Shown here piece after piece: positions 1 through 25,230 of a DNA stretch of 29,324 nucleotides. The DNA comes from a virus: the IMG/VR virus record IMGVR_UViG_3300042691_003044, positions 1-29,324 of that record; one strand, written 5' to 3'. The notes below the pieces were generated by a model. That model was not told the DNA's origin, ran no database searches, and saw only the letters and a list, made by a program, of their open reading frames with translations. Made by a program: the position numbers and the translations under genes. Each line of letters starts with the position of its first letter. Positions within the stretch are counted from its first letter, which is position 1.

Positions 1-63
1 CATCGTCTTTTGCTAATAACATCTTCTCTTCGTACCACGCAGCAAGGTCGTCAAGTTCTTTTT
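1..63. repeat. Terminal direct repeat, left copy (contig closure)
   Basis: The first 63 bases are identical to 29262-29324. The repeat lies inside the tape-measure gene and the reading frame runs through it without a break. It is therefore best read as the overlap of a circular assembly, from a circularly permuted or circular replicating genome, and not as a biological terminal repeat. Unique length is then 29261 bases. Confidence 0.95.
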
Positions 64-1660
64 GTCTTGCAGCATCCTCTTCAGTCATTAAAGTATAAGC
101 TACTTCGCTGCGTAAATCCGCAAGGTCTTTTTCTTTCTCGTCTCTTAGTTCTTTGTCTTCGTCGAAAAACTTTTGTTCTAAAGCTAACTGGTCTGTAAGT
201 TGTTGGTCTTGTAGTTTCTTAACTAATTCAGCATTGTTTTCGTTTAGTAAAATCTTTTCATCATACCAATCGTTTAAAGCGTCTCTTTCCATTTGTCGAG
301 AAGCCTCAGTTTCTGAAAGTGTTTTATAATTTAACTCACGTAGAAGAGTGTCCATTTCTGCGGCTTTCTCTTCAGCCGTCTTTCTTTCCTCTTCGTCAAA
401 CTTATCATTAACCGCTTTGCGTTCTGCGTTGTAATTGGCTAACAACGTGCTGGTATCTTGACCGTATTTTTTAGCAAGTGTGAAAGCCTCTTTATAATTC
501 TTATCGATGTCTTCTAATTCTTGCTTTCGTTCGCTTAGTTGACTGTATCTGTATTTCTCCTCGACCTCCTGAATCTTTTCTAAAGCCTCAAGTCTTTCTT
601 CTGCTGCCTTTGCTCTGTCTTCTGCGGTCTTTTGTATTTCTTCTTGCTGTGACTTTTCATAGTTAATCGTTAAAATCTTCATTTGGTTAGCAGCATCAAG
701 CCCTAAATTCAAAGAGTCGTTTACTTGTTTTTTAAAATCGTCTCGTCTTTTTGCAGCCTCTTTCCCCACTTCAGTATTGGCATAGCCTCTAAGTTCCATC
801 TCAGCGGCTATCGCTTCGTAGATTTTATATTGAAGTTGTAATTGGTTAACTAATTGTTTTTGATATTGAACAGTTGCATTTAATTTCTGCATCTCTAAAA
901 GGTAAGTGTCTTTACCTTCAGCTTTCTTTAAATCAATGGTTCGTTGTAGTGCGCTTTGTTCGTTGTTGTATAGAAGTTCACGCTGCGCTTTTAGTTCTTC
1001 GTTCCGCTTCATTTCTGCGGCGTGTCGTTCTTTGGCGTTTTCTTCGCCCTCTTCAGCGGCTCCCTCACTTAAACCAAACCAAGATAAGAACTCTTTTATT
1101 GCATCAATTACAATTTGAATGAGGTCACCTATAAAACCGAACACCGCACCGACAGCGTCCATAATTGGCTGTAATATTCCGAGTGCATTCATTAGGGCAA
1201 TGATACCAGCAACGATAGCAGTAATTGCAGCGACCAGCAAAAAGATAGGGTTCGTTAATAACATAACCCCAAATTGAATAAACGTCTTTCCTAACGTGGT
1301 AACCGTACTTGTTAAGCCTTGAATACCTTTTGATATTGTCTCAGGATTTATAGAAGTTACAGTTGATTGAAATATTTTCGCTTTGTTTGCAGCCTCTTCA
1401 AAGTCAAGGTTCATTATTGAATCCTTAAGGCTACCGAAAGAGTTGTTTATTTGTTCGAATTTAGAGCCACTTGCAAAGACCGTGATTTGTTCGTTTGCGT
1501 CTCCTATTCTGTCCTTTAGTTCACCAGCTGCGGTTGCGAGTTCTTGCATTCTTTTCGGGTCGGTCGCATTTAGTAACTCATCACGAACCGCTTTGAGTTC
1601 GGCTTTCAGTTCTTTTAAACCTCCAACTTGAATTGTGCCTACGTTAATCGTTCCCGCCAT
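1..1660 (-). CDS. Tape measure protein, N-terminal part (continues at right end)
   Basis: The ATG at 1660 opens a frame with no stop to the contig edge. It continues in frame at 29261-28645, giving one 758-residue protein. This part holds about the first 553 residues. A short coiled N-terminus is followed at roughly residues 110-170 by long hydrophobic stretches (FIQFGVMLLTNPIFLLVAAI and a following I/A/G-rich segment), as in tape measure proteins. A very long Lys/Glu/Gln-rich coiled coil comes next. Two related blocks, EASRQMERDALNDWYDEK and DAARQKELDDLAAWYEEK, are spaced 77 residues apart. In siphoviruses this protein sets tail length and is delivered with the DNA; 758 residues would suggest a tail of roughly 110 nm. 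Promoter-like element 1667-1693 ends 6 bases before the ATG. The gene is easily missed because the contig ends cut it. Confidence 0.9.
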   Translation of the reverse strand, partial: MAGTINVGTIQVGGLKELKAELKAVRDELLNATDPKRMQELATAAGELKDRIGDANEQITVFASGSKFEQINNSFGSLKDSIMNLDFEEAANKAKIFQSTVTSINPETISKGIQGLTSTVTTLGKTFIQFGVMLLTNPIFLLVAAITAIVAGIIALMNALGILQPIMDAVGAVFGFIGDLIQIVIDAIKEFLSWFGLSEGAAEEGEENAKERHAAEMKRNEELKAQRELLYNNEQSALQRTIDLKKAEGKDTYLLEMQKLNATVQYQKQLVNQLQLQYKIYEAIAAEMELRGYANTEVGKEAAKRRDDFKKQVNDSLNLGLDAANQMKILTINYEKSQQEEIQKTAEDRAKAAEERLEALEKIQEVEEKYRYSQLSERKQELEDIDKNYKEAFTLAKKYGQDTSTLLANYNAERKAVNDKFDEEERKTAEEKAAEMDTLLRELNYKTLSETEASRQMERDALNDWYDEKILLNENNAELVKKLQDQQLTDQLALEQKFFDEDKELRDEKEKDLADLRSEVAYTLMTEEDAARQKELDDLAAWYEEKMLLAKDD

Positions 1661-1666
1661 ATCTTA

Positions 1667-1693
1667 ATAATAGTAAAATTTTAATCGTGTTTT
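1667..1693 (-). promoter_or_regulatory. Late promoter-like element, copy 1 (tape measure)
   Basis: On the minus strand the element reads AAAACACG-N12-CTATTAT, followed after 6 bases by the tape-measure ATG. The same two-part motif occurs at 6307-6333, 8477-8504, 14382-14409, 22632-22655 and 25203-25230. Position and conservation suggest a phage-specific late promoter. If so, the mRNA would have almost no leader. The upstream half overlaps the stop codon of the tail-fibre gene. Confidence 0.6.
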
Positions 1694-2174
1694 AATAGAT
1701 ACCGTAAACCCTCAAGGCGAATACTTTCCAACTTGCGTTAGAAACACTTGTTGTTGTTATTGAAATAGTCCCGCCACCCGTCAAAGGCTCTGAATATTTT
1801 GCAGTACCACCGCTTTGAAATTGGTCACCCGTTCCCGTGGCATCACCTGACAAGACTAAAGTTCTTTTTGTAACCGAGTTTATAACGATGTTAAAAGAAG
1901 TATTACCGTTACTGTTTGCGTTGTTTATGAATTCAACTTCCGCTTCAACCATTATTCGTGAGTAGGTGTTTGCTGCAAGTGTGTATGTTTTTGCGGTTGT
2001 TGCTGTGCTCCCTGAAGTTTCGGTTTCTTGAGTATAAATTAAAACCATTGTTCCCGCTGGTAAAGTTGCTGACAAAGTTAAATTTCCATTACCAAGAATT
2101 GAACTCCCGTTAATGGTTTTTATGTTTGTTCCGCTAACTAAAGCGTTTTGTTTTTTACTGTTTAAATAACTCAT
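1692..2174 (-). CDS. Tail fibre / receptor-binding protein
   Basis: A 160-residue protein. Residues about 8-36 carry the tail-fibre motif (KTINGSSILGNGNLTLS), which in many fibres is a short trimerisation or connector segment of the type I-N-G-x-S-[IL]-L-G-x-G-N. The remainder is Thr/Ser/Gly-rich and predicted all-beta, ending with a compact domain (SWKVFALRVYGIY) resembling jelly-roll receptor-binding heads. It probably sits at the tail tip or on the 905-residue tail protein encoded just upstream with a 1-base gap. It is the last gene before the tape measure's own promoter-like element. Family assignment rests on motif and position. The receptor is unknown. Confidence 0.65.
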   Translation of the reverse strand: MSYLNSKKQNALVSGTNIKTINGSSILGNGNLTLSATLPAGTMVLIYTQETETSGSTATTAKTYTLAANTYSRIMVEAEVEFINNANSNGNTSFNIVINSVTKRTLVLSGDATGTGDQFQSGGTAKYSEPLTGGGTISITTTSVSNASWKVFALRVYGIY

Positions 2175-2175
2175 A

Positions 2176-4893
2176 TTAAATAATTAACCATTCTGTACCA
2201 CTATCAACTACCGTTAAAGCATCGTATTGAGATAAGCTTATTGTCAACGCACCGTCAATTAAATTGCCTCCAGTTCCTTGAACATCTACATTAAAAGTTG
2301 AAATATTTTTGATTATAAACGTGCGCCCGAAATCACCAACTGCTGGAAGTGTAACATTAACTAAAGCAGCTCCGTTTGAAATTATAAGCGTGTCGTCAGT
2401 GGTTGCTGTGTAATCTTGGTCGATTAAAGTTGGTATGTAAATAACACCGTAAGGAAAAGGGTTACTTGCTGACTTACCGTTTATTGTGTCTGTCCAAATT
2501 CCTGAGTCACCAGCTCCGACAATCTTGTTATTACCTACGACAACACCTTGAAAACCTTGTTGAATTACGTTACCTTGACCGTAAACCATTGCGTTGCTGC
2601 CTAAACTTATAACGTTGTTGTTTTCGTTGTTCGTGTTTATAATAGGTTCGGTAATTGTTCCAAGTTCTCCCGCCGTTGGTATTATTGGTCTTCCCGTTTG
2701 GAACTGTGCGAAGTCGATTTCTTCGTCGATGCTTAAAAGTTCAACAGTTGTTAACCGTGGGTTGTTGCAGTCGTAGTCAATTACCTTATTAATATTCCAC
2801 CAAGAATTATCAATCCTAATCTTATCGTTTAGCTTCAACGTAGCGATGTCAGTTTCTCGAAGGTTAAACTTAGCGGTCAACATTTTACCGTTGTTAATCT
2901 GTCCTATCGTACGTCTCCAGTAAAGGTTAAACAGATTGTTGTTGGTTAGTATGCTTTGTTGATAGTAATAATAATCACACACTCCGAAATTTAAATCAAA
3001 ACTTGGAACGTACGGGTTGTTGAAGTGGCTTATTGACGGGTATTGAGTTAGGTTAGTTTGTCCCGTTGTACCGTAGTCGTAAATGTTAAACGGGTTGCAG
3101 TTAAACATTCCGCCGTCGAATAAGATTCTTATGTTCGTCTTTGGCGCAGCACCAGCAAGTAAAGGAACAACCGCATTGAACACCGTTTTTGACATTGGAG
3201 TTGGACTAAACAGAATCTCTTTTTTGTCGATGTTCTTGACATACTCATTGTCGTAAATGTATTCTACTTGACCGTATATTTCACCCGTTGCCTCAAAATA
3301 GTTTTTATTAGGTTGGTCTGTGTCTTGTTTATAAGTTAAGATTAATCTCTTTGAAGTAATCTCAGGTAAGAATTTAAGGTCTTGGTCTTTGTCTTTAGCG
3401 AGTTTATAAGTCCAGTCCTTTTCAAGCCCAGCGTCGTAATAATCGTCACGGTGCGACAAGATAAGTTTATTCGGGTTATCGGGGTCAATCTCAGTATACA
3501 GATTGTACATTGTGAAAATCGACTTAACAAAGTCCGATTGTTTAATCTTTTTAGGAACGTAGTTATTTACTATCAACGTACCGCCTGAACCCGTTATATT
3601 AGTTGAGGCGACTACTGACATATCAACGCTCGTTAAATCAAGCTGAGTGTCAATTAATACGTTTGTGCCTCCTACGTTTTGCCATCTTAAAAAACCGTTA
3701 CCACCAGCGCCTAAATATTCTTGGACTTGAAGACCCGCATAGATTTCGATAGTGTCACCGCTTGAAAGGTTTGAAACTGGTATAGTAAAGTTTCTTGTGA
3801 ATGTTCCAAGGTTCGTACTTCCGTTCGGTATGTTTGTGCCTTCGTCTTGTTCACCGTCAAAAGTTCCGATTGTTGCAAAGTTACTCGAAGAGTTAAATAC
3901 CCCGTTAACGTAAATCTGAAAACGTAAAGTATAGCGATAAGCTGCAAACGGTGTAAAGTTACCAAAGCCGTTTAAATAAGCTGTCGCACCCGTTGAATTT
4001 AGTAAATTAATATCGTAATCACAAGCAAAGTTAAAGTTTATTGATTCGCCTGAGTTAACTGTGAACGTGTTTGTGTAGACACCCGTTAAAGGTGTGAATA
4101 GGTTAAATGCGTCAAGTGTTTCAGTCCATCCGACTAACTGCTCACTAAATGAGTTATTCTGTCCCGCTGTTGTTTGGTAGCCGTCTATTGTTTCGGTATT
4201 GTTTGCCTCAACATTGTACGCTGAATAGTCTACGTTCTCAAGTTCACCATTATAAGGAATCAACAACTTGTCAAAGTAAGCATCTTGTAAAGTTGACCAA
4301 TCGTAACTAAACCCAGCCGTTGCGAAAATCCTATCGAAATAAGTCTGCGCATAAATAGCGGGTTTCATTTCTTTGAGTGGGTAAAAGTTATCACCCGAAT
4401 AAGGTAATACATACTTATAACCATCGGCAACCGTATTCGACCAACTTGAAACAACCGTAGCACTATCGTAAGTGTGGTTTAAATCTGAGAAGTCTAAGTC
4501 TGTTAACTCAGCACCGCCTAACGTAGTAAAGAAATCGGACTGGCTATCTTTAACCAATACTTCATATTCAACACCTTGTTCGTGTGCGTCGTTTGTTTGA
4601 ACTTTCTTAACAGCGATTAACTGAAGCGATGCGTCTTCCATTACAGGAATACCGTTTTGAATTACACTACATTTAGTAATCGTGTTTATGTTGAACGTCC
4701 CCGCCTGGATATTTACGTCGTAATAATGGTTTAATAAGTCGTGGTTGTTCTTCGTGTTTTCGAGGACTATCGTTTTACTAAACGCTCCCTTTCGTGTGGA
4801 TAAATCTCGAATGTCACCAACCTGAAAACTAATAGGGAAAGCTGTGTTATCCTTTACGTCTAAATATCCGTTTTGTAGTTGTATTCTAACCAT
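2176..4893 (-). CDS. Large distal tail / baseplate protein with fibre-like C-terminus
   Basis: A 905-residue protein. The N-terminal 80 or so residues (DNTAFPISFQVGDIRDLST, then KGAFSKTIVLENTKNNHDLL) match a structural protein type that is common near the tape measure in Flavobacteriia siphophages. The middle is beta-rich and Asn/Thr-rich. From about residue 760 there are short repeats such as NVISLGSNAMVYGQGNVIQ and GVVVGNNKIVGAG, like the stacked left-handed beta-roll heads of trimeric adhesins. A globular C-terminal domain follows (about 825-905). The likely role is tail-tip hub or spike that carries the fibre encoded next. The start overlaps the upstream gene by 8 bases. No enzymatic motif was seen. 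Confidence 0.68.
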   Translation of the reverse strand: MVRIQLQNGYLDVKDNTAFPISFQVGDIRDLSTRKGAFSKTIVLENTKNNHDLLNHYYDVNIQAGTFNINTITKCSVIQNGIPVMEDASLQLIAVKKVQTNDAHEQGVEYEVLVKDSQSDFFTTLGGAELTDLDFSDLNHTYDSATVVSSWSNTVADGYKYVLPYSGDNFYPLKEMKPAIYAQTYFDRIFATAGFSYDWSTLQDAYFDKLLIPYNGELENVDYSAYNVEANNTETIDGYQTTAGQNNSFSEQLVGWTETLDAFNLFTPLTGVYTNTFTVNSGESINFNFACDYDINLLNSTGATAYLNGFGNFTPFAAYRYTLRFQIYVNGVFNSSSNFATIGTFDGEQDEGTNIPNGSTNLGTFTRNFTIPVSNLSSGDTIEIYAGLQVQEYLGAGGNGFLRWQNVGGTNVLIDTQLDLTSVDMSVVASTNITGSGGTLIVNNYVPKKIKQSDFVKSIFTMYNLYTEIDPDNPNKLILSHRDDYYDAGLEKDWTYKLAKDKDQDLKFLPEITSKRLILTYKQDTDQPNKNYFEATGEIYGQVEYIYDNEYVKNIDKKEILFSPTPMSKTVFNAVVPLLAGAAPKTNIRILFDGGMFNCNPFNIYDYGTTGQTNLTQYPSISHFNNPYVPSFDLNFGVCDYYYYQQSILTNNNLFNLYWRRTIGQINNGKMLTAKFNLRETDIATLKLNDKIRIDNSWWNINKVIDYDCNNPRLTTVELLSIDEEIDFAQFQTGRPIIPTAGELGTITEPIINTNNENNNVISLGSNAMVYGQGNVIQQGFQGVVVGNNKIVGAGDSGIWTDTINGKSASNPFPYGVIYIPTLIDQDYTATTDDTLIISNGAALVNVTLPAVGDFGRTFIIKNISTFNVDVQGTGGNLIDGALTISLSQYDALTVVDSGTEWLII

Positions 4894-6301
4894 TGATTGA
4901 ATCTTGATTTGCTAACATTACGTTCACGCTTCGCATTATTAAATTCTTGTTCTTTTGTCTTGCTACCTCGAAAGATGTTTCTTGAACGATACAAGCGTAA
5001 TAATTACCGCCTATTTTTATATAAACTTGAGGACTGCTAATAAGTTCTTGGTAATAAGCGTCCATTTCAACTGTAAGCCAATTGGTATTTAATTGATACG
5101 TCTTTTGAACGGTTGGATTAATTACCCGACTTCCATAATCTTGAGTGTCGTAAGTCCACATTCCTGAATTCGTGTAACCTTGAACGTCTTGTTTATAAAC
5201 ATCTTTATCAACAGTCCCTTGTTCATAAGCCCTAAGTTGAAAAGCGAAAGAACCGAAAGAACCTAACCTATCCAAGAACACAAGTTCAAAATCTTCAATC
5301 TTGCAACGTGTGTCTAAGTCTATTCTATAAATCAAAGACTGGTCGTTATAACTTCCATCTGTATAAACGAATTCGTACCACGTTGTTGTGGGTTTTAAAA
5401 GTGGTAAAGTTCCAACCAAAGCGGTTAACGTTCCTAAATTATTTATACCTACTCCCACTTGAGTTATTAAAGCGTTATCAGTTACAGCTTTTGCAAACAC
5501 ATCGCCGTCCGAGTTTCCGAAGACCATATAACCAGTCGTATCGAAGTTGTTCATTATGTTGACAAACAAGTCTTGAGTTCTTGTGACCCTAAAACCACTT
5601 TGAGGTATTGTTGTTAATAACCTATCTGTTGCACCGTCTAAAATGAAAACATCTTGGTCATAGATTCTAAACTCAGACCACGGAAGCGCTCCGTTAAAAA
5701 CATATTTGTTTAAAGTGGTTACAATGTCTCGTGTTATCGTCTTTCGGTTGTCCGCATAGTTAACCGTCCCGTTTGCAGTAGGGTCGTTTACATTTGCAAA
5801 TAAAGCGTTTATTGTAAAGTTAGTTGTTCCGCTTATTGCAATCACCGTCCAAAGACCGTTCACCGCTGAGTTAGCCACTCCAGCAAATAAAACTATTTGG
5901 TCGCCTACCTGGAACGTGTGTGCGGTTGTTGGTGTTATTTGAATGTTGCCCCCGTTGTTTACTAAGTTAGCCGTGTAACTGTACGTAACGACGTACTCTT
6001 CGCCAACCTTTAAATCGTATTTGTAATAACTGTTTGTTGCGGGGTCGCTTTCGCTTAACGCTGGGTCGAAGTCAAACGTAACTTTGTTTTGAAGTAACTT
6101 ACTTAAGTCTATTTCACCATAGCCATCTGAGTATCTTGGGAACACTCTATATTCAGCTATCTTGTTTGCAGTCCCCGATTCGTATACGTCGAATATATAC
6201 TTGAATCCAAGGTTGTTCTTATTAGTTGAATCGTACAAGAACTTAATCGGATTGTAAGCGGGTGTTCTGTCGTAAGGTTCGTTTATTGTTGTTATTGCCA
6301 T
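4886..6301 (-). CDS. Distal tail structural protein
   Basis: A 471-residue protein, first gene after the terminase and after promoter-like element 6307-6333. The N-terminus (TINEPYDRTPAYNPIKFLYDS) resembles tail proteins of Bacteroidota phages. Residues about 115-185 form an inserted beta domain with a motif of the type HTFQVGDQIVLFAG...VNGLWTVIAIS, like the small beta-barrel (E1 FCCH-like) modules seen in phage tail and head proteins. The rest is beta-rich with no catalytic motif. Position immediately before the 905-residue tail-tip protein suggests a distal tail or hub component. This is inferred from context. Confidence 0.6.
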   Translation of the reverse strand: MAITTINEPYDRTPAYNPIKFLYDSTNKNNLGFKYIFDVYESGTANKIAEYRVFPRYSDGYGEIDLSKLLQNKVTFDFDPALSESDPATNSYYKYDLKVGEEYVVTYSYTANLVNNGGNIQITPTTAHTFQVGDQIVLFAGVANSAVNGLWTVIAISGTTNFTINALFANVNDPTANGTVNYADNRKTITRDIVTTLNKYVFNGALPWSEFRIYDQDVFILDGATDRLLTTIPQSGFRVTRTQDLFVNIMNNFDTTGYMVFGNSDGDVFAKAVTDNALITQVGVGINNLGTLTALVGTLPLLKPTTTWYEFVYTDGSYNDQSLIYRIDLDTRCKIEDFELVFLDRLGSFGSFAFQLRAYEQGTVDKDVYKQDVQGYTNSGMWTYDTQDYGSRVINPTVQKTYQLNTNWLTVEMDAYYQELISSPQVYIKIGGNYYACIVQETSFEVARQKNKNLIMRSVNVMLANQDSING

Positions 6302-6306
6302 ATCTT

Positions 6307-6333
6307 ATAATAGTAAATAAGGTTTCGTGTTTT
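6307..6333 (-). promoter_or_regulatory. Late promoter-like element, copy 2 (distal tail operon)
   Basis: The minus strand reads AAAACACG-N12-CTATTAT, then 5 bases to the ATG at 6301. Spacing and sequence match copy 1. Its upstream half overlaps the terminase stop codon, so the motif sits at a gene junction with only about 30 bases available. Confidence 0.6.
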
Positions 6334-7489
6334 AGAAGGCTAAATAACTGTCCTCGGTAAAATACATTTCTTTAATGAACATCACCGCATACCTCACAGC
6401 GTCCATTGCATCGTCGTAAAGTTTCACGGGTTCATCGGTTATTGTGTCGCCGATTTTTTTCCACTTATAATTTTCGTATTCCTTCTTAAGGTTCTCGTCT
6501 TGTTTACACCACACCTTAAAAGTTTTAACTGCGTTTAGTCCTGACTTTACGTTCTTGTTTGCGTTGTTCACGTTAAACCCTGAGTTTTGCATCTCGGCAA
6601 TTATTTCAGGTCTTGAGTAGTCCGCGAGAATATCAACCGTGTTTTCAATGTTTAGTTGTTTAAAGCGCTCAATTAATTCGCTTGTTGTTAGATAGGATTC
6701 GTAAAGAACGGGTTCAATGTAAACGTCACCTTCGCACCAATAAACACGCATTAACGCAGTCGGGTGGTTGTAACCGAAGTCAAGGCCGTAAACATAGTTT
6801 TTAAAGCGCTCAGGCTTTTGAGTTATGAACTCCCAAGTGTTGAAAATGTTTGTCTTGCTAATAGCCTTTTCACCTAAAGCATAGATTTGATACAGCGCTT
6901 CGTCTGTTCGTGCAAGGTCTTCTATTTGTCTTATAATTGACTCAGGTAAAAACGGGTTGTCCTTATACGTGGATTTGATTAAGATGCTTTCGTTTTTTGG
7001 TAGTTCGTACAACCAACTTGAACTATCGGAAGGGTTATAGTCGAAAATCATTTTTGTTTCAGTCCTCATATTGAGCTGTTGAAAGTCTTCGAACCAAAGT
7101 TCGTTAGCCTCATTGCACCAACCGATATCACGTTTACGACCTCTGACTTTTTGCTCGTCGTCAACGCTGAAGAACTCAACTATTGACCCGTTGGAAAAGC
7201 GGTAAATATTTTCTGACATATTGTGACTACTCTTTTCGTAAATCTCCAAGTCTTTAAGCACCTCAAAGAAATCACGCATTACCGTAGCCCTCAAAGCTGG
7301 GAACGTCTTTCTAACGATTGACACAACCTTGTTCGAATTCTGCAAGCAATAGACTATTAACACCTGACAAAGTGAATAAGTCTTGGAACTACGTGAGCCA
7401 CCTTGGTTGATGATGAATCTAATCGACGGGTCTTGTAACGCATCGAAGTTTTCTTCAAAGATTTTAGTTGCCTGTATTTCCAGTCCCAC
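6332..7489 (-). CDS. terL: Terminase large subunit
   Basis: A 385-residue packaging motor and nuclease. The N-terminal ATPase shows the Walker A motif GGSRSSKT at residues 30-37 and a Walker B-like segment DIGWCNEANE at about 121-130, ending with the catalytic acidic residue. The RNase H-like nuclease domain shows the three expected acidic positions: GLDFGYNHPT (about 235-244), DILADYSRP (about 286-294) and YDDAMDAVRYA (about 359-369). Length and motifs fit the PBSX/XtmB-type terminase family. It cuts concatemeric DNA and pumps it into the prohead through the portal. Its start overlaps the small-subunit gene by 26 bases, as in many terminase pairs. Confidence 0.93.
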   Translation of the reverse strand: MGLEIQATKIFEENFDALQDPSIRFIINQGGSRSSKTYSLCQVLIVYCLQNSNKVVSIVRKTFPALRATVMRDFFEVLKDLEIYEKSSHNMSENIYRFSNGSIVEFFSVDDEQKVRGRKRDIGWCNEANELWFEDFQQLNMRTETKMIFDYNPSDSSSWLYELPKNESILIKSTYKDNPFLPESIIRQIEDLARTDEALYQIYALGEKAISKTNIFNTWEFITQKPERFKNYVYGLDFGYNHPTALMRVYWCEGDVYIEPVLYESYLTTSELIERFKQLNIENTVDILADYSRPEIIAEMQNSGFNVNNANKNVKSGLNAVKTFKVWCKQDENLKKEYENYKWKKIGDTITDEPVKLYDDAMDAVRYAVMFIKEMYFTEDSYLAF

Positions 7490-7901
7490 CCCTTACGATG
7501 TTTACTTTTATTTCGTTTATCTCTTTGCCGTTTGTGGTTACGTCCGTCTTTTCAGTGAGTCCGTTTAAGCGCTGAGTAATTGACGGATTAAATTGTCCAA
7601 CCATACCACCTTGGATTTGGTCGTTTCTGATTTCTTTCTTTATGCGATTGCAGATACCTACGAACGCCGAATATCTACCCTCTCTATTTGAGAAATATTG
7701 TTCAACTCCTTTCGATTCTATTCCTTCGTAGTTCATCACAAAAATGTCAAAACCCTCCATTGTAAGTGGTGGAGTATGCCATTCGGACTTTACTCCTGTG
7801 GCGGTTGCTTTTTGAATCTCTCGAGGTTTTAAGTTCTTCTTATACTCTTCGAATAGTTCCCACATTTTCTCTGGGGTTTCTATGTATTTGTGTTTTGGCA
7901 T
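7464..7901 (-). CDS. terS: Terminase small subunit
   Basis: A 145-residue protein directly upstream of and overlapping terL. The pattern (TPEKMWELFEEYK near the N-terminus, then HTPPLTMEGFDIFVM and a helical region with FSNREGRYSAFVGICNRIK) is that of small terminase subunits of Bacteroidota phages. The C-terminal tail (NEIKVNIVRGG) resembles the portal- or terL-interacting beta strand at the end of many TerS proteins. It would recognise the packaging site and form a ring on DNA. The 12-base gap to the previous gene contains only an AAAACACG half-motif, so it is probably transcribed from element 8477-8504. Confidence 0.85.
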   Translation of the reverse strand: MPKHKYIETPEKMWELFEEYKKNLKPREIQKATATGVKSEWHTPPLTMEGFDIFVMNYEGIESKGVEQYFSNREGRYSAFVGICNRIKKEIRNDQIQGGMVGQFNPSITQRLNGLTEKTDVTTNGKEINEIKVNIVRGGTGNTGN

Positions 7902-7913
7902 ATGTTCGTGTTT

Positions 7914-8114
7914 TTATAGTTCGTGTTGTTTTGCTTTTTTAAAGTGGTTTAGGAATTCATCCTCGTCTATTTCTTCTACTGCGAGATAATGGTCTTGGCT
8001 TGTCAGGTAACTAACGTAGTGGTATTCATTTTTCTTCATTGTGTCCTCTATTGTTTCAGCAATGGAGAGCATTTTTTCACCTACGTCTATTATAAAGAAT
8101 CTATTTTTTTGCAT
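7914..8114 (-). CDS. Small acidic protein of unknown function
   Basis: I place the start at the ATG at 8114 (66 residues, MQKNRFFIIDVGEK...). The longer frame to 8159 would overlap the upstream gene by 59 bases; this start overlaps it by only 14. The protein has an Asp/Glu-rich C-terminal half (EEIDEDEFLNHF). No family was recognised. It lies between small middle genes and the terminase pair, in the unit that would begin at promoter-like element 8477-8504. Confidence 0.6.
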   Translation of the reverse strand: MQKNRFFIIDVGEKMLSIAETIEDTMKKNEYHYVSYLTSQDHYLAVEEIDEDEFLNHFKKAKQHEL

Positions 8115-8334
8115 TGGTTCGTCTTTTTCTTGGTTTCTTTGGCTTAACTTCTTGTTCAACTGGTTGCGGTTCTTGGATTACCTCAAAAATAAAACTGAAG
8201 CCGTATTTTTTAAGCTGTGGAATTTGCTCGGGTTTAATTCGGTCAACTTCGATAGTTCGAACTCCGAGTATTGGGTCAGTAATGCTAACTACACAACCTT
8301 TGTACTCAGCTTTTATTTGTTCATTTTGTGCCAT
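8101..8334 (-). CDS. Small protein with basic C-terminal tail
   Basis: A 77-residue protein. The first 55 residues look like a small beta-rich domain (GCVVSITDPILGVRTIEVDRI). The last 15 (KPKKPRKRRTNAKK) are strongly basic, so nucleic-acid contact is possible. Proteins of this shape are common just upstream of terminases in Flavobacteriia phages, but no function is known to me. The ATG lies inside the end of the preceding membrane-protein gene (22-base overlap). Confidence 0.6.
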   Translation of the reverse strand: MAQNEQIKAEYKGCVVSITDPILGVRTIEVDRIKPEQIPQLKKYGFSFIFEVIQEPQPVEQEVKPKKPRKRRTNAKK

Positions 8335-8471
8335 TCGTTTAAAAATAAGTAAGTAATGTAAGAAATCAAAGCCACTGCGCCAAATTTATTCGTTAAATCT
8401 GAATCGTTAAATAAACCAACTGCGAAGCCTACCGTACTAATTAAGGTAATTAAGCTTATAAAGTCTTTCAT
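8313..8471 (-). CDS. Small two-helix membrane protein
   Basis: A 52-residue frame starting MKDFISLITL. Two hydrophobic segments (about residues 4-20 and 31-45) are separated by a short polar turn containing NDSDLTNKF, so a two-pass membrane protein is predicted. It is the first gene after promoter-like element 8477-8504 and its ATG lies 5 bases from that element, which supports this start. It overlaps the next gene by 22 bases. The function is unknown; a membrane or lysis-related role is possible but not shown. Confidence 0.6.
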   Translation of the reverse strand: MKDFISLITLISTVGFAVGLFNDSDLTNKFGAVALISYITYLFLNEWHKMNK

Positions 8472-8476
8472 AATTG

Positions 8477-8504
8477 ATAATAGATTTAATTTAGTTCGTG
8501 TTTT
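8477..8504 (-). promoter_or_regulatory. Late promoter-like element, copy 3 (terminase operon)
   Basis: The minus strand reads AAAACACG-N13-CTATTAT, then 5 bases to the ATG at 8471. It overlaps the last codons of the sigma-like gene. The candidate regulator's gene thus ends in a copy of its proposed target, which heads the unit carrying the terminase genes. Confidence 0.6.
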
Positions 8505-9013
8505 TCTAAGATTTGCCGAATATCTTGCTTCATCTCGGTGATTAATCCGTGAGAACTAAACTCCGAAATATCAAAATGCTTTGCTATTGACCTTACCGTA
8601 TTGTAACCCTTGTCGAAATAGGTCTCAAAGAATATCTTTTTTACTCTATCCTTTTGGGTGTTTCTGTAAATCTCAATTGCGACCCGTTGGTTTTGTAGTT
8701 TGAATTCGTGTTCGAGTTTGATTAGAAAGTCGTCAGGTTCTTCTTTTTGTAGGTAATCGTCTATTGCGTTTGTGAGTTCCTTTTTGCTTTCGGTGTCACG
8801 CCAAATAATCTCCGTTTTGATTAGGTGGAATAAGTAACCTTTCGCTTCGTAATCGTGTTTAACTTCAGGGTTTATATTGAGGTATCTAAGATAAGCGTTT
8901 GAAATTACCGTTTGAACTGAGAGCTTAAGTTTAGAGCGTTTAATAAAATAGGACGTGTATTTTTCGACCTCTTTGTAATTACATTGTATGTACGTATCAA
9001 TTAAGATTTTCAT
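8486..9013 (-). CDS. Sigma-factor-like transcription regulator (candidate late activator)
   Basis: A 175-residue protein with the layout of a small (ECF-size) sigma factor. A helical N-terminal part around residues 60-75 (YLFHLIKTEIIW) resembles sigma region 2, with a charged linker. A C-terminal helix-turn-helix at about 125-170 (IFFETYFDKGYNTVRSIAKH, then FDISEFSSHGLI) resembles sigma region 4. It is the last gene of the early/middle block, directly upstream of the terminase operon. Position and domain layout suggest that it redirects host RNA polymerase to the six AAAACAC(G/T)-N-CTATTAT elements. It could instead be a terminase-type or other HTH regulator. The region 4 resemblance is moderate and region 2 is weak. 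Confidence 0.55.
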   Translation of the reverse strand: MKILIDTYIQCNYKEVEKYTSYFIKRSKLKLSVQTVISNAYLRYLNINPEVKHDYEAKGYLFHLIKTEIIWRDTESKKELTNAIDDYLQKEEPDDFLIKLEHEFKLQNQRVAIEIYRNTQKDRVKKIFFETYFDKGYNTVRSIAKHFDISEFSSHGLITEMKQDIRQILEKHELN

Positions 9014-9200
9014 ACCACGTCAAAAAGTCCTTTATATAGATTTTTCGGTAAACCATTCCACACATACAATTGTCCTCTGACCCATTTAAAACCCTATTCC
9101 TAATCTTTTGAAACTGCTTTGCAACCGATTTCGAATAACGTGTTGTTTCAGGTAATCCCTTAACCAATTCTATAAACTTGATTTCAGCCTCTGTAAACAT
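8997..9200 (-). CDS. Small protein of unknown function
   Basis: I use the ATG at 9200 (67 residues, MFTEAEIKFIELVKGLPETT...) because the longer frame to 9287 runs through the membrane-protein gene. It is helical and has a CxC pair (NCMCGM) near residue 45 and a Trp/Tyr-rich end (DFLTWYENLN). No family was recognised. It overlaps the preceding membrane-protein gene by 31 bases and the sigma-like gene by 17, so it is tightly packed in the same transcript. Confidence 0.6.
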   Translation of the reverse strand: MFTEAEIKFIELVKGLPETTRYSKSVAKQFQKIRNRVLNGSEDNCMCGMVYRKIYIKDFLTWYENLN

Positions 9201-9427
9201 ATATTTAAGATGTAAGTGAGTAAAGATACCAAACAAGCAGTGAAAACGTCTCCAGTGTACGCAAAAGCACTCCAAAACGCAACGCACTTAATACAAGATA
9301 ATCCTCCGTGAATCCAATTAAGATAAAAAGACGGTTTAAAACGCCCGAAAAGGTAATCAATAAAATAGTGTATTGGTTCAAATTCGCACCACCACCAAGC
9401 AAAGGATAATAAATATACTATTGTCAT
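9170..9427 (-). CDS. Small membrane protein
   Basis: An 85-residue, very hydrophobic and aromatic protein (IVYLLSFAWWWCEFEPIHYF at the start). Three hydrophobic segments are visible: about residues 3-15, 45-57 (KCVAFWSAFAY) and 60-78. A CxxC motif (SCIKC) lies at about 44-48. It is coupled by a 4-base ATGA overlap to the preceding gene. Membrane proteins of this type occur in Flavobacteriia phages without known function. It could alter the host envelope or assist lysis. Confidence 0.6.
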   Translation of the reverse strand: MTIVYLLSFAWWWCEFEPIHYFIDYLFGRFKPSFYLNWIHGGLSCIKCVAFWSAFAYTGDVFTACLVSLLTYILNICLQRLKSSL

Positions 9428-12469: not shown

Positions 12470-13375
12470 TTAAAAGGGTAAATCAAAATTAGTATTTCTT
12501 TTTAAATCAAATCGTTCGTCTTTTAGTTCGAGTGGATTAACACCAGCGCAAGTGAAGCCCGTTCCGTATTCATACTTAAAACGTACCGCATCGTTTAACG
12601 GTGTCGGCTTACCACCCGTCTCAGTTTCTTTAACTTTCTTAACGTGTACGTGTGTATACATCCAGTTTAAAGAGTCTGCTACGTAACGATGAATTACAAT
12701 AAAATCGTCGGCTCTATTTCCCCACTTACCACCGCCTTCAGCGTCTGCCATATTTGGAGGCATTGGGTGTCCTTCGAAGTCGCCTTCTTTGTGAGTTTTT
12801 CTTAGTGCTTCAGTTGCTGCGTGAACGCATAGGTAAATTGTTGTATTCGTCTTTTTGGCAAATAACCTTAGTTTAGTTGCAATTGTATAGTCGTAATCGT
12901 GAGCGTTAAACCCTTGAGGCCTTACAAAACTATTGTGAGGGTCAATCATTAACACGTCGTAGTTACCTAATCTTTGAACCTCTTGCATAAACTTCTCAAT
13001 TGCCCAAGCTTCAGAGGTGTCTATAAAGTCAAAGTGTAATTCGATGAATAGTTTAGCCGTCTCAAGTTCTTGCTTATCCATCTCGGTTATCTTTTTACCT
13101 AAGTACAACTCTATTAAGTTACGTTTCATACCAGTAACCGTGTTTTCAGCACTATAAATTAGGTGTTTAAGAGAGTGTTTCACACTCAAACAAAGAAGGT
13201 AGTACAAAACAAAGTAAGTTTTACCCGTGTTAGCGTGTCCAAGAACGATATTAAAAGACGCTTCCTTAAACCTAAGGTAAGTATCTAAGTCTGTACCTAT
13301 ACCTTTACCAATAGGAACTTCGTTCCGCCTAAGCAACTCTAAGAAGTCATCGTTGTTTCTGTGGTTAATTAACAT
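12470..13375 (-). CDS. RecA/DnaB-fold ATPase (replicative helicase or loader-like)
   Basis: A 301-residue P-loop ATPase. Walker A is GHANTGKT at residues 46-53, followed by YFVLYYLL. Walker B is VLMIDPHN at about 141-148. A conserved MADAEGGGKWGNRADDFIVI segment at about 215-235 and a later RYVADSLNWMYTHVHVKK strand fit RepA/KaiC/DnaB-like ATPases. The protein ends in NFDLPF, matching the C-terminal tail of Bacteroidota SSB. No polymerase is encoded, so this protein may recruit host replication machinery. The ATG overlaps the DUF6291-like gene's stop (TAATG). Confidence 0.78.
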   Translation of the reverse strand: MLINHRNNDDFLELLRRNEVPIGKGIGTDLDTYLRFKEASFNIVLGHANTGKTYFVLYYLLCLSVKHSLKHLIYSAENTVTGMKRNLIELYLGKKITEMDKQELETAKLFIELHFDFIDTSEAWAIEKFMQEVQRLGNYDVLMIDPHNSFVRPQGFNAHDYDYTIATKLRLFAKKTNTTIYLCVHAATEALRKTHKEGDFEGHPMPPNMADAEGGGKWGNRADDFIVIHRYVADSLNWMYTHVHVKKVKETETGGKPTPLNDAVRFKYEYGTGFTCAGVNPLELKDERFDLKRNTNFDLPF

Positions 13376-13770
13376 TAGTCAAGTATTACGTATCCGTTAA
13401 TATCGATTTTAGGTTGTCTAAGTGGTTGTTCTTCTATATTTATTACACTATCACTTACACTAACACTTACAGCTTCGTTTGCTTCATTTTGCTTCGTTTT
13501 GCTTCGTCTTGTTTCACCGCTTTTAATACCGCCTTTTTTACCAGCTTCAGAACGGGCTAACTTAGTCTTTTCCCATTTGCATAAATCACGCTTTAAAGTC
13601 TGTTTAAAAGGCTCAAAAAGTAATTCTGTAATCCTGTCCGAGTTAGGTTCTAAATCGTTGACGTAGCGAAATAAATGCTTAACTAATTTACCAGCTTCCT
13701 CGTCTGTTAATTTTTCAAATGTAGTAATCCAATCCGCATAAATTACTACTCCGTTTTTGTCTGTTGCCAT
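13375..13770 (-). CDS. DUF6291-like replication-region protein
   Basis: A 131-residue protein. The first 75 residues (GVVIYADWITTFEKLTDEEAG, LVKHLFRYVNDLEP, LLFEPFKQTLKRDL) form the pattern known as DUF6291, frequent beside replication ATPases in Bacteroidota phages and prophages. The rest is disordered and Ser/Val-rich (AVSVSVSDSV). A replisome-organiser-like role is inferred from position, immediately upstream of and coupled to the ATPase. It could instead be a regulatory DNA-binding protein. Confidence 0.65.
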   Translation of the reverse strand: MATDKNGVVIYADWITTFEKLTDEEAGKLVKHLFRYVNDLEPNSDRITELLFEPFKQTLKRDLCKWEKTKLARSEAGKKGGIKSGETRRSKTKQNEANEAVSVSVSDSVINIEEQPLRQPKIDINGYVILD

Positions 13771-13771
13771 T

Positions 13772-14266
13772 TTAAAAAATTCTTTTAATATTATGTTCTT
13801 TCATATAAGATAAAACTTTTAAATGTGCATCGTATTCATTTACAAATCGTCCTAAATAAACTTTTTTTTTATTTACAAATAATCCTGCTGTAAATCTGTC
13901 TTTACTCTTCCAAACTCCATAATAATTAGAACCAATACCTTTTTTAATATTGTTTTCTCTACTTGATAACAATTGTAAATTATTTACATTATTATTTAAT
14001 TTATTATCATCAATATGGTCAACAACTAATCCAATATTTCCATTAGGCTGATGATTTAGAAATGACATAGCAACCAAAACGTGACAACCATAAGTTCTTT
14101 GTAATCCTTTTTCTTTCCAATTTAAAGTAAATTGTTTATAACCTCTACTGCTAATTGAACCTTTTAATTTTTTGATTTTTCCATTTTTTATAGAAATTAA
14201 ATTACCGTAATTGGATATTTTATAACGTCCATCATAACCAATTACATCCTTCCAAATTTCATTCAT
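13772..14266 (-). CDS. HNH homing endonuclease (NUMOD4 + HNH + AP2-like)
   Basis: A 164-residue free-standing endonuclease. The NUMOD4 motif is at residues 1-25 (IWKDVIGYDGRYKISNYGN). The HNH core runs at about 60-105 (CHVLVAMSFLNHQP, VVDHIDDNKLNNN, NLQLLSSRENN). A C-terminal AP2-like DNA-binding segment is at about 115-160 (YYGVWKSKDRFTAG, YLGRF). Such genes are mobile and spread by cutting gene copies that lack them. The gene is visibly more AT-rich than its neighbours and sits between the predicted small RNA and the DUF6291-like gene. No intron or intein was recognised around it. Confidence 0.88.
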   Translation of the reverse strand: MNEIWKDVIGYDGRYKISNYGNLISIKNGKIKKLKGSISSRGYKQFTLNWKEKGLQRTYGCHVLVAMSFLNHQPNGNIGLVVDHIDDNKLNNNVNNLQLLSSRENNIKKGIGSNYYGVWKSKDRFTAGLFVNKKKVYLGRFVNEYDAHLKVLSYMKEHNIKRIF

Positions 14267-14283
14267 ACTAATTTATTTAAATT

Positions 14284-14336
14284 AAAAAGCCTCTATTCTC
14301 CCTACGGCTCTGACCTCGCAGTTCAAATAAAGGCTC
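14284..14336 (-). terminator. Terminator formed by hairpin 2 of the predicted small RNA
   Basis: A 10-11 bp stem (GAGCCTTTATT with AATAGAGGCTT) is followed directly by TTTT on the minus strand. It would end the small RNA and attenuate read-through into the HNH gene. The loop is unusually long (28 bases) but is itself structured by an inner 5 bp stem. Confidence 0.5.
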
Positions 14337-14376
14337 AAATAATCCTTTTAAGGTTCTATAGTGTCAGAGCGAACCT
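14284..14376 (-). ncRNA. Predicted small RNA with complementary hairpin loops
   Basis: No open frame fills this interval. On the minus strand hairpin 1 has the stem AGGTTC/GAACCT (14376-14371 with 14356-14351) and a 14-base loop showing GCTCTGAC (14370-14363). Hairpin 2 has an outer stem AGCCTTTATT/AATAGAGGCT (14335-14326 with 14297-14288, one G-U pair), an inner stem CTGCG/CGTAG (14321-14317 with 14306-14302) and an apical loop containing GTCAGAGC (14314-14307). The two loop octamers are perfectly complementary. They could form an intramolecular kissing loop or link RNA molecules in trans. Element 14382-14409 would start transcription near 14376 and the T-run after hairpin 2 would end it, giving an RNA of about 90 bases. 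The function is unknown. Confidence 0.55.
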
Positions 14377-14381
14377 ACTAA

Positions 14382-14409
14382 ATAATAGTAAAATTTATCA
14401 AAGTGTTTT
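14382..14409 (-). promoter_or_regulatory. Late promoter-like element, copy 4 (predicted small RNA)
   Basis: The minus strand reads AAAACACT-N13-CTATTAT. This copy has no ATG within 10 bases. The structured non-coding stretch 14376-14284 follows instead. It overlaps the end of the 81-residue gene and lies inside the early block, so it would give a late RNA from an early region. Confidence 0.5.
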
Positions 14410-14643
14410 TTTTCTATCGCAATATTTTCTCCATTCGTCCATCGTCCACACTTCAAAGACTAATTTTGGATGAAGGTCTAATCGTTTAACCGCGTCTTCT
14501 TTAGAGTAGGCTTGGACGATAAAGTAGTCAACTTTGTTTTCAATCCAAGTGTAAACCCTATATGGACGCTTAAAAGGGTACGTCGAACACGCTTTCTTCT
14601 TTCTTAAAAGGCTCTGATAGTTTAGCGCTGAAGAATTTTCCAT
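14398..14643 (-). CDS. Small protein of unknown function, with unusual overlap
   Basis: An 81-residue frame. Residues from about 28 onward (YRVYTWIENKVDYFIVQAYS, then KEDAVKRLDLHPKLVFEVWT) look like a real small domain. The first 27 residues lie in the overlap with the upstream gene and look like an out-of-frame read. The 74-base overlap is much longer than others here. No ATG, GTG or TTG was found between the upstream stop at 14570 and the domain, so the start at 14643 is kept with doubt. Frameshift fusion from the upstream gene is an alternative. Confidence 0.5.
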   Translation of the reverse strand: MENSSALNYQSLLRKKKACSTYPFKRPYRVYTWIENKVDYFIVQAYSKEDAVKRLDLHPKLVFEVWTMDEWRKYCDRKKTL

Positions 14644-16163: not shown

Positions 16164-16580
16164 TTAGATTTCTGCTAATTTAAGTAATTTACTTATTCGA
16201 TTTTCCAAAAGGACTAAATTTTTTAACTCGTTTACGTTAATATCGTCGACGGGCTTAATGTGGCAACGGGATTTTTCTTTAATCAACTCAATGTTTTCTT
16301 TTATTTCTTGGTAACCGTAACCTTCATACGTTGTTAAGACTTGTTTTATAGCGTGTATTACCGTTGAGTGGTCTCTACCGAAGTCTTTACCAGCATCTTG
16401 TAAGCATTTTCCGCTCATCCAGTTCCACACCATACCGATGTTACGCCAAATTACGACTTCTTGTTTTCGTGTTTTCAACAGTTCACCTTCAAAAATGTAA
16501 GGACAAGCTTCGTAAAAGTCGACCATTTCAAAAGACGATACCTCTATAATCTTTGCTATCTTACCTCGTTTGTATTTCAT
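16164..16580 (-). CDS. DnaA domain IV-like DNA-binding protein
   Basis: A 138-residue protein lacking an ATPase domain but carrying the DnaA C-terminal helix-turn-helix signature. KQEVVIWRNIGMVWNWMSG at about 39-57 takes the place of the R-H-I-A-M-Y helix, and DFGRDHSTVIHAIKQV (about 66-81) is nearly the DnaA box-binding motif GRDHTTVLHA. A charged helical C-terminus follows. In DnaA this domain binds DnaA boxes. As a stand-alone phage protein it may mark the phage origin, compete with host DnaA, or act as a repressor. It lies just before the Erf gene. The motif is clear; the role is inferred. Confidence 0.8.
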   Translation of the reverse strand: MKYKRGKIAKIIEVSSFEMVDFYEACPYIFEGELLKTRKQEVVIWRNIGMVWNWMSGKCLQDAGKDFGRDHSTVIHAIKQVLTTYEGYGYQEIKENIELIKEKSRCHIKPVDDINVNELKNLVLLENRISKLLKLAEI

Positions 16581-22623: not shown

Positions 22624-22631
22624 CTTATTTA

Positions 22632-22655
22632 ATAATAGGGTTAATTACGTGTTTG
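22632..22655 (-). promoter_or_regulatory. Late promoter-like element, copy 5 (portal/lysis operon)
   Basis: The minus strand reads CAAACACG-N9-CTATTAT, then 8 bases to the ATG at 22623. The spacer is shorter than in the other copies (9 instead of 12-13). It lies directly downstream of a strong terminator, as expected for a promoter that restarts transcription. Confidence 0.55.
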
Positions 22656-25196: not shown

Positions 25197-25202
25197 TACT
25201 AA

Positions 25203-25230
25203 ATAATAGGTGTTATTTTATAAGTGTTAT
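25203..25230 (-). promoter_or_regulatory. Late promoter-like element, copy 6 (protease/capsid operon)
   Basis: The minus strand reads ATAACACT-N13-CTATTAT, then 6 bases to the ATG at 25196. The upstream half is the most degenerate of the six, while the CTATTAT half is intact. It lies back to back with the plus-strand promoter-like element at 25238-25245. Confidence 0.5.

Follow-up and report, generated by a model that had tools for sequence, protein, structure and literature searches.

We report a structured RNA of about 90 nt at the head of a phage replication operon, which comparative analysis indicates to be real and previously uncatalogued. Its place ahead of the replication genes is a point absent from the original prediction, made on the same DNA without database searches. 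The window referred to here is the whole 29,324-nt stretch of IMG/VR virus record IMGVR_UViG_3300042691_003044. Comparison of relatives supports two stems, a loop-loop (kissing) helix, the shape of a terminator, a -7 box, a single copy per genome and a fixed genomic place. All of this evidence is comparative, without RNA data, and the relatives are metagenomic. The RNA probably controls when the phage begins copying its DNA. We give even chances to the fuller reading that we prefer, a new family of phage structured RNAs of about 90 nt, with their own promoter, kissing loops and a terminator, that would exert attenuator-type control of replication.

The family is compact, single-copy, widespread in environmental phages and absent from Rfam, and the covariation that supports its loop-loop contact is unusually clear, with about 30 alleles. 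It keeps its place at the beginning of the replication operon also where the replication proteins belong to an unrelated type. Our results suggest that these phages control their DNA replication through an RNA, in a phylum where gene regulation by phages has been little studied. For RNA engineering the octamer alleles offer a natural collection of orthogonal kissing-loop pairs, and the family lends itself to simple predictions with compensatory mutations.

The element is encoded by minus-strand positions 14376-14284, in a 131-nt gap flanked by orf81 and a gene for an HNH endonuclease (Table 1). We regard its two-hairpin fold as near certain. Both hairpins are retained in the minimum-energy structure predicted for the minus strand (-28 kcal/mol, z = -2.5, with 1 of 200 shuffles equal). 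The inner stem of hairpin 2 has 5 bp, one of them G-U. The octamers had been given as the loops of the two hairpins; they do sit in the loops but fill only part of them, hairpin 1 having a loop of 14 nt and hairpin 2 one of 10 nt. Octamer 1 directly follows the 5' strand of stem 1, and octamer 2 directly precedes the 3' strand of stem 2. A scan written for this analysis, which looks for a pair of kissing hairpins followed by a terminator, was applied to the window, the genomes and the loci. The element scored 33, versus 23 for the runner-up in the window, and the top background score over all genomes and loci scanned was 27, obtained by a probable member of the subtype B described below. Rfam (release 15) gave no match at the gathering score for the whole window and 15 related loci, and only a chance-level, unrelated match (E = 9.1) for the element itself; no description of this RNA was found in the open-licence literature.

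Table 1. Positions in the window of the RNA element, its parts and the neighbouring genes.
Feature	Position	Strand	Basis or annotation
orf81, co-directional upstream gene ending just before the promoter	14398..14643	-	
Promoter-like element TTTTACTATTATTTAG	14378..14393	-	exact copy at 1663-1678 (-); -7 box conservation
Hairpin 1, 5' strand AGGTTC	14371..14376	-	predicted fold and covariation
Loop 1 octamer GCTCTGAC, kissing strand 1	14363..14370	-	covaries with octamer 2 in 52 homologues
Loop 1, 3' part ACTATA	14357..14362	-	conserved unpaired columns
Hairpin 1, 3' strand GAACCT	14351..14356	-	predicted fold and covariation
A/T-rich linker between hairpins, 15 nt, with conserved TTATT	14336..14350	-	column conservation
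Hairpin 2 outer stem, 5' strand AGCCTTTATT, 10 bp	14326..14335	-	covariation
Hairpin 2 internal loop TGAA/GGAG, 4x4, purine-rich	14325-14322 / 14301-14298	-	
Hairpin 2 inner stem, 5' strand CTGCG	14317..14321	-	covariation
Loop 2 octamer GTCAGAGC, kissing strand 2, preceded by AG	14307..14314	-	cell pairing across homologues
Hairpin 2 inner stem, 3' strand CGTAG	14302..14306	-	covariation
Hairpin 2 outer stem, 3' strand AATAGAGGCT (14297-14288) with T-run 14288-14284, putative intrinsic terminator	14284..14297	-	fold, covariation and T-run conservation
NUMOD4/HNH endonuclease gene between RNA and replication operon	13772..14266	-	PF07463, PF13392
DUF6291 protein, replisome-organiser-like, first core operon gene	13375..13770	-	PF19808; weak phrog_6451 primosomal match
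DnaB/RecA-like helicase, second core operon gene	12470..13375	-	phrog_18375 DNA primase/helicase 2.5e-30; AAA_25

Relatives were drawn from IMG/VR using the proteins of the neighbourhood as queries. In diverged relatives the spacer at the equivalent place has a similar element, whose octamers differ yet remain complementary. A covariance model of the stems only (R1), built from the window and nine relatives, located the element in dozens of additional loci, and 52 distinct sequences were aligned on the two stems alone (alignment A5). Since the model holds no octamer pairs, this alignment is not fitted to the octamers. It contains about 30 different octamer pairs, and standard pairs occupy 98.6% of the 416 cells of the kissing helix, compared with 70% in shuffles and 31-40% with slid partners. 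The covariation score of the kissing helix is 0.775 (0.22 shuffled, 0.03-0.14 slid), with both-sided changes at six of its eight pairs. Over the structure as a whole, pairing holds in 97% of cells, and compensatory changes are seen at 24 of 26 pairs. Both-sided changes occur in all five modelled pairs of stem 1, where 100% of cells pair, and likewise in all nine modelled pairs of the outer stem and all four of the inner stem of hairpin 2. Folded singly, every one of the 52 homologues forms both hairpins, and its loop octamers stay mostly unpaired.

The shuffles preserve column make-up but not relatedness, which is addressed by the slid controls, by a set of loci found with a pattern, and by compensated changes in near-identical RNAs. 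The pattern was an independent DNA pattern, run on viral contigs, that fixed hairpin 2 only and left octamer 1 free. It returned at least 80 loci, 79 of them usable and a few shared with the earlier set. Among the matches listed, 72 of the 79 usable ones have a perfect 8-nt upstream complement and the remaining 7 have one of at least 6 nt; by our own estimate, the chance of such a complement is roughly 0.1% per match. Three pairs of near-identical RNAs (L084/L096, L005/L009 and L024/L025) differ by compensated octamer changes.

The pairing of the octamers is thus kept by compensatory change in relatives, far beyond chance. The original prediction, a small phage RNA in which two hairpins have complementary 8-nt loops, had named octamers that change without keeping complementarity as its refutation and compensatory octamer changes as its support; the homologues provide the latter, and the pattern matches add to it. 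Covariation, the complements of the pattern scan and the structural scan rule out a chance inverted repeat. An ordinary nested helix of the octamers would cross both conserved stems and costs about 6 kcal/mol when forced. Against a dyad acting at the DNA level stand the many G-U pairs of the stems and the terminal T-run, while the kissing helix is almost free of G-U.

The promoter-like element and the terminator that had been assigned to the unit are likewise borne out by the homologues, whereas the transcript itself is inferred. In 42 of the 52, versus 10% of background windows, stem 1 is preceded at a distance of a few nucleotides by a Bacteroidetes-type -7 box, either TAnnTTTG or a looser form of it, and a T-run follows hairpin 2 in 96-100% of the homologues. 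TAnnTTTG is the Bacteroidetes -7 consensus and has been reported from Bacteroides fragilis and Flavobacterium johnsoniae (PMC7366714). In the window, an AAAACAC box is located about 17 nt upstream of the promoter-like element TTTTACTATTATTTAG, and the T-run of the hairpin 2 terminator is the probable, predicted 3' end of the RNA. Generic sigma-70 and terminator scans stayed at chance level and did not recognise the element. Further copies of the motif (AAAACAC, about 17 nt, TTTTACTATTATTAAG) occur in the window at 1663-1678, 6303-6318, 22628-22643 and 25199-25214, always on the minus strand, with 0-5 core mismatches and directly before genes, structural ones included. These copies end about 2-5 nt ahead of the ATG, so that, if they are promoters, the corresponding mRNAs would be nearly leaderless.

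Downstream of the element in the window, the ATG of the HNH gene is 22 nt past the end of stem 2. This homing-type NUMOD4/HNH gene is an insertion between the RNA and the DUF6291 gene and is missing in most relatives; for the DUF6291 protein, a clustered relative matches a DnaD-like helicase loader (phrog_2514, 5e-33). An ATG start codon is found 17-30 nt past stem 2 in 48 of the 52 homologues. In almost all loci found through proteins, the RNA is followed first by 0-4 accessory genes, which include HNH and ParB/methyltransferase genes and ORFs of roughly 60 aa, then by a gene for a replisome organiser or helicase loader, and finally by one for a helicase. Two of the first-gene clusters were identified, one as helicase loader phrog_2514 (5e-33) and the other as replisome organiser phrog_6251 (3e-44). 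For the pattern-found loci, among the matches listed, a helicase lies no more than six genes downstream in 64 of 67 and a recognised organiser lies downstream in 55 of 67. The gene upstream of the RNA varies widely in both protein-found and pattern-found loci. Two exceptions, L248 and L282, carry an 800-aa protein instead, that of L282 with BT4734-like_N and PriCT_1 primase domains, which links the RNA to replication as such.

Tiny, diverse ORFs (54-69 aa) are often the first after the RNA (L031:4158, L047, L076, L025, L037, L090 and L095), many of them with a C-terminal helix pattern (LIxxL); they are possibly accessory or counter-defence genes at a hotspot. A stand-alone HTH protein with a DnaA C-terminal domain (Bac_DnaA_C) is encoded near recombination genes of the window (16164-16580, minus strand). 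Relatives commonly encode similar, related HTH proteins, which in other clades often stand immediately upstream of the RNA.

Conservation of the RNA extends to unpaired positions. The 3' part of loop 1 (family consensus ATTATA, 3-6 nt) has columns conserved at A 86, A 94, T 86 and A 92%, and the consecutive columns of the linker TTATT at T 96, T 98, A 90, T 80 and T 98%. The tandem-GA internal loop of hairpin 2 is swapped for GAGTA/GAAA in L024, L025, L051 and L123. As RNA, GAGUA/GAAA resembles the sarcin-ricin (loop E) motif and may represent a three-dimensional docking site kept by motif exchange.

Weak matches to the model (L038, L039, L040, L042, L053, L058 and L062, and further L089, L093, L094, L097, L101 and L136) make up subtype B, assigned by eye and without a covariation count. 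Its stems differ from those of the main type and its complementary loops are 6-7 nt long, as in CCC-GATGCAG-GGG with GGG-CTGCATC-CCC and in AGTAGCGG with CCCGCTAC. It lies at the equivalent genomic place in all the neighbourhoods examined (L038, L040, L042 and L136). Given these differences in stems and loops, the conserved idea is two hairpins with complementary loops, not one sequence.

Under the attenuator-type reading, transcription would start at hairpin 1 from the RNA's own promoter, and most transcripts would stop at hairpin 2 and its T-run, releasing an sRNA of about 90 nt in which hairpins 1 and 2 are predicted to form the 8-bp kissing helix. Transcripts that read through would express the replication genes, for which no other obvious promoter is apparent in the gap of about 20 nt. 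The kissing fold would set the termination efficiency of hairpin 2 and the stability of the sRNA, and the element would act as a timer or dose control of phage DNA replication. All three helices could form together, within one molecule or between two, an inference from reasoning without a three-dimensional model: the 2 nt beside octamer 2 and the 3-6 nt after octamer 1 are like the short loops that cross pseudoknot grooves. Against this explanation, no transcript, read-through or termination data stand behind it, and what defines a leader attenuator (a promoter, a hairpin terminator and a gene start without a further promoter) is met at the level of sequence only. The upstream genes run in the same direction, so that the replication genes could also be expressed from a long early transcript. 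Inspection by eye revealed no antiterminator sequence common to all members. The RNA is, moreover, exchanged independently of initiator type, as described below.

Phage P4 CI RNA and the c4 RNA of P1/P7 are short, leader-derived RNAs that lie before a phage operon, are complementary to their own leader and control lysogeny; that of P4 precedes the replication operon. The element is similar to P4 CI RNA in its place in the leader of a replication operon and in its self-complementarity, but it differs from both in having its two complementary segments inside one short RNA, in apical loops. An immunity RNA of this type was rejected on the absence of an integrase in 15 genomes, whose records may be incomplete, and of a partner for the octamer elsewhere in 13 of 16 genomes, longer or gapped targets being outside the scope of that search. 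Among the described cases that we found, the nearest in which a phage sRNA occurs in both a read-through and a terminated form is IsrK of the Salmonella prophage Gifsy-1, for which a longer mRNA form by read-through, a short sRNA form by termination, and action on an antiterminator circuit are reported (PMC4825925). Like the element, IsrK is a phage sRNA that heads phage genes and comes with a promoter and a terminator of its own (PMC4825925). The two have no evident gene context in common, the element heading a replication operon and having covarying loop-loop pairing, and read-through in the element would be by analogy only.

The alternative that survives best, although we consider it unlikely, is an autonomous trans-acting phage sRNA, whose kissing fold would serve as a stable scaffold, either for binding a protein of host or phage or as a means of escaping RNases, and whose place before the replication operon would merely give early expression. 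Such an sRNA is compatible with one copy per genome, an own promoter and terminator, a fold kept better than its sequence, and unpaired blocks (ATTATA, TTATT and the GA-rich internal loop) that could be protein contacts. It is also compatible with RNA alleles that move independently of both neighbours. In phages with 85-98% identical flanks the RNA is either the same or quite different, as in L122/L124 (flanks 94 and 96% identical, RNA 57%) and L116/L122 (flanks 90 and 98%, RNA 54%). L117 and L122 have one RNA in common but different initiators, and L122 and L124 have the initiator type in common but different RNAs; because it is swapped independently of initiator type, the RNA is not tuned to one initiator protein. 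However, a trans-acting sRNA has no need to stay locked to the replication operon while the upstream genes change completely. Unlike seeds for phage mRNAs, moreover, the octamers do not recur: in 13 of 16 own genomes an octamer search, with longer or gapped targets outside its scope, found none outside the RNA, and a role as seeds for other phage genes was discarded for want of additional copies in most genomes. Avoidance of the octamers, initially striking, was gone when compared with the Markov expectation (249 observed, 262 expected).

Doubtful, yet the most interesting open reading if true, is pairing in trans between copies, in which a free sRNA would kiss a nascent leader of the same allele and raise termination, with copy-dependent feedback or exclusion of a co-infecting phage with the same octamers as the outcome, much as plasmid copy-control RNAs or P4 CI RNA work. 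Copies of the same RNA are complementary to one another, octamer alleles are many, and the exchanges between phages of nearly identical flanks often leave them with quite different RNAs. Nonetheless, intramolecular kissing accounts equally well for the covariation, which cannot separate intra- from intermolecular loop pairing. RNA swaps alone are no proof of selection for diversity, because the RNA region is a recombination hotspot. Among close relatives the octamers change at 7.5%, versus 7.9% for unpaired bases, about twice the rate of the stems; with a rate so near that of other unpaired bases, strong diversifying selection on the octamers is unsupported. Classic lysogenic immunity is unlikely with no integrase in the 15 genomes. 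If anything less credible is an RNA-only specificity system of integrase-less phages, in which an allele-matched sRNA would shut the replication operon in trans, set copy number and exclude a co-infector of the same allele.

Plasmid copy control relies on kissing RNAs that are opposite-strand antisense pairs, such as ColE1 RNAI/RNAII, R1 CopA/CopT and pMV158 RNAII. The loops of subtype B (6-7 nt) are similar in size to those of ColE1. Judged by loop positions only, an antisense RNA of this class was excluded, both complementary loops being on one strand and in one RNA. In such plasmid systems loop-loop pairing is reported to be tied to replication control (PMC4485353). Kissing loops that covary are also found in the phage RNAs GOLLD and ROOL, where they are intermolecular in cryo-EM structures; GOLLD often exceeds 800 nt, ROOL is also large, and both are often near tRNA islands (PMC12286853). 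In contrast, the element has about 90 nt and is linked to replication.

We find it improbable that the element is a promoter-terminator cassette for modular recombination, with kissing loops that only strengthen the terminator. The model for such a cassette is the PeSL (promoter early stem-loop) of T4-type phages, an intergenic promoter and stem-loop at a gene-exchange hotspot. The intergenic place with promoter and hairpin-terminator, the frequent exchange of the accessory genes directly downstream and the mosaic neighbours all suit it. However, many junction copies would be expected, whereas the element is in a fixed place and usually present once per genome, the probably chimeric G001 apart, and its hairpin 1 and covarying loop complementarity are strictly kept though needless for recombination or termination.

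The phi29 packaging RNA (pRNA) has two loops with reciprocal complementarity, and two complementary loops on one RNA can in principle drive rings, so that the comparison with it in the original prediction stands as a physical principle. Membership of the pRNA family is unsupported: the element is shorter, has no Rfam match and hence no pRNA match, and lies at the replication operon, about 6 kb from the packaging genes. Because terminase-type packaging genes are present in the window (a Terminase_3 large subunit, TerL, and a GP3_package small-subunit-like protein, along with a portal), we do not file it as a pRNA, and we give hardly any credence to a packaging or assembly RNA ringed by loop-loop contacts. 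As little credence goes to a replication-origin RNA or primer precursor beside the initiator gene, since the element, though adjoining the replication operon in nearly all loci, ends in a terminator and shows no GC-skew switch at 14.3 kb.

Regarding its carriers, the structural scan detected a single element in nearly all near-complete phage genomes of about 30 kb, and whole-record searches agreed on one copy per phage. The exception, G001, has two RNA copies and a replication region doubled in opposite orientation, and is probably chimeric. Positions 1-9204 of IMGVR_UViG_3300020043_001641 (L004) similarly hold two opposite-orientation replication regions with two different RNA alleles, probably through chimeric assembly of two phages. 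The covariance model gave no match in some related records, a few of which carry subtype B.

Integrase and serine recombinase families (PF00589, PF00239) are absent from 15 genomes of the group, whose records may be incomplete, and prokaryote genomes, when scanned, yielded a single distant locus, which lacks the RNA; the phages are therefore probably virulent. A blastn search of deposited phage records, which diverged copies could escape, gave no convincing match to the RNA and no cultured carrier. From their sequences, the carriers are environmental phages with Bacteroidetes-type promoters, the host itself not being shown; the HNH gene of the window resembles Flavobacterium phage genes. Across 21 related genomes, short palindromes are strongly rare (CCGG, 136 versus 1242 expected; GATC, 326 versus 2565; GGCC, 174 versus 778; CATG, 812 versus 2661), an under-representation that suggests host restriction pressure.
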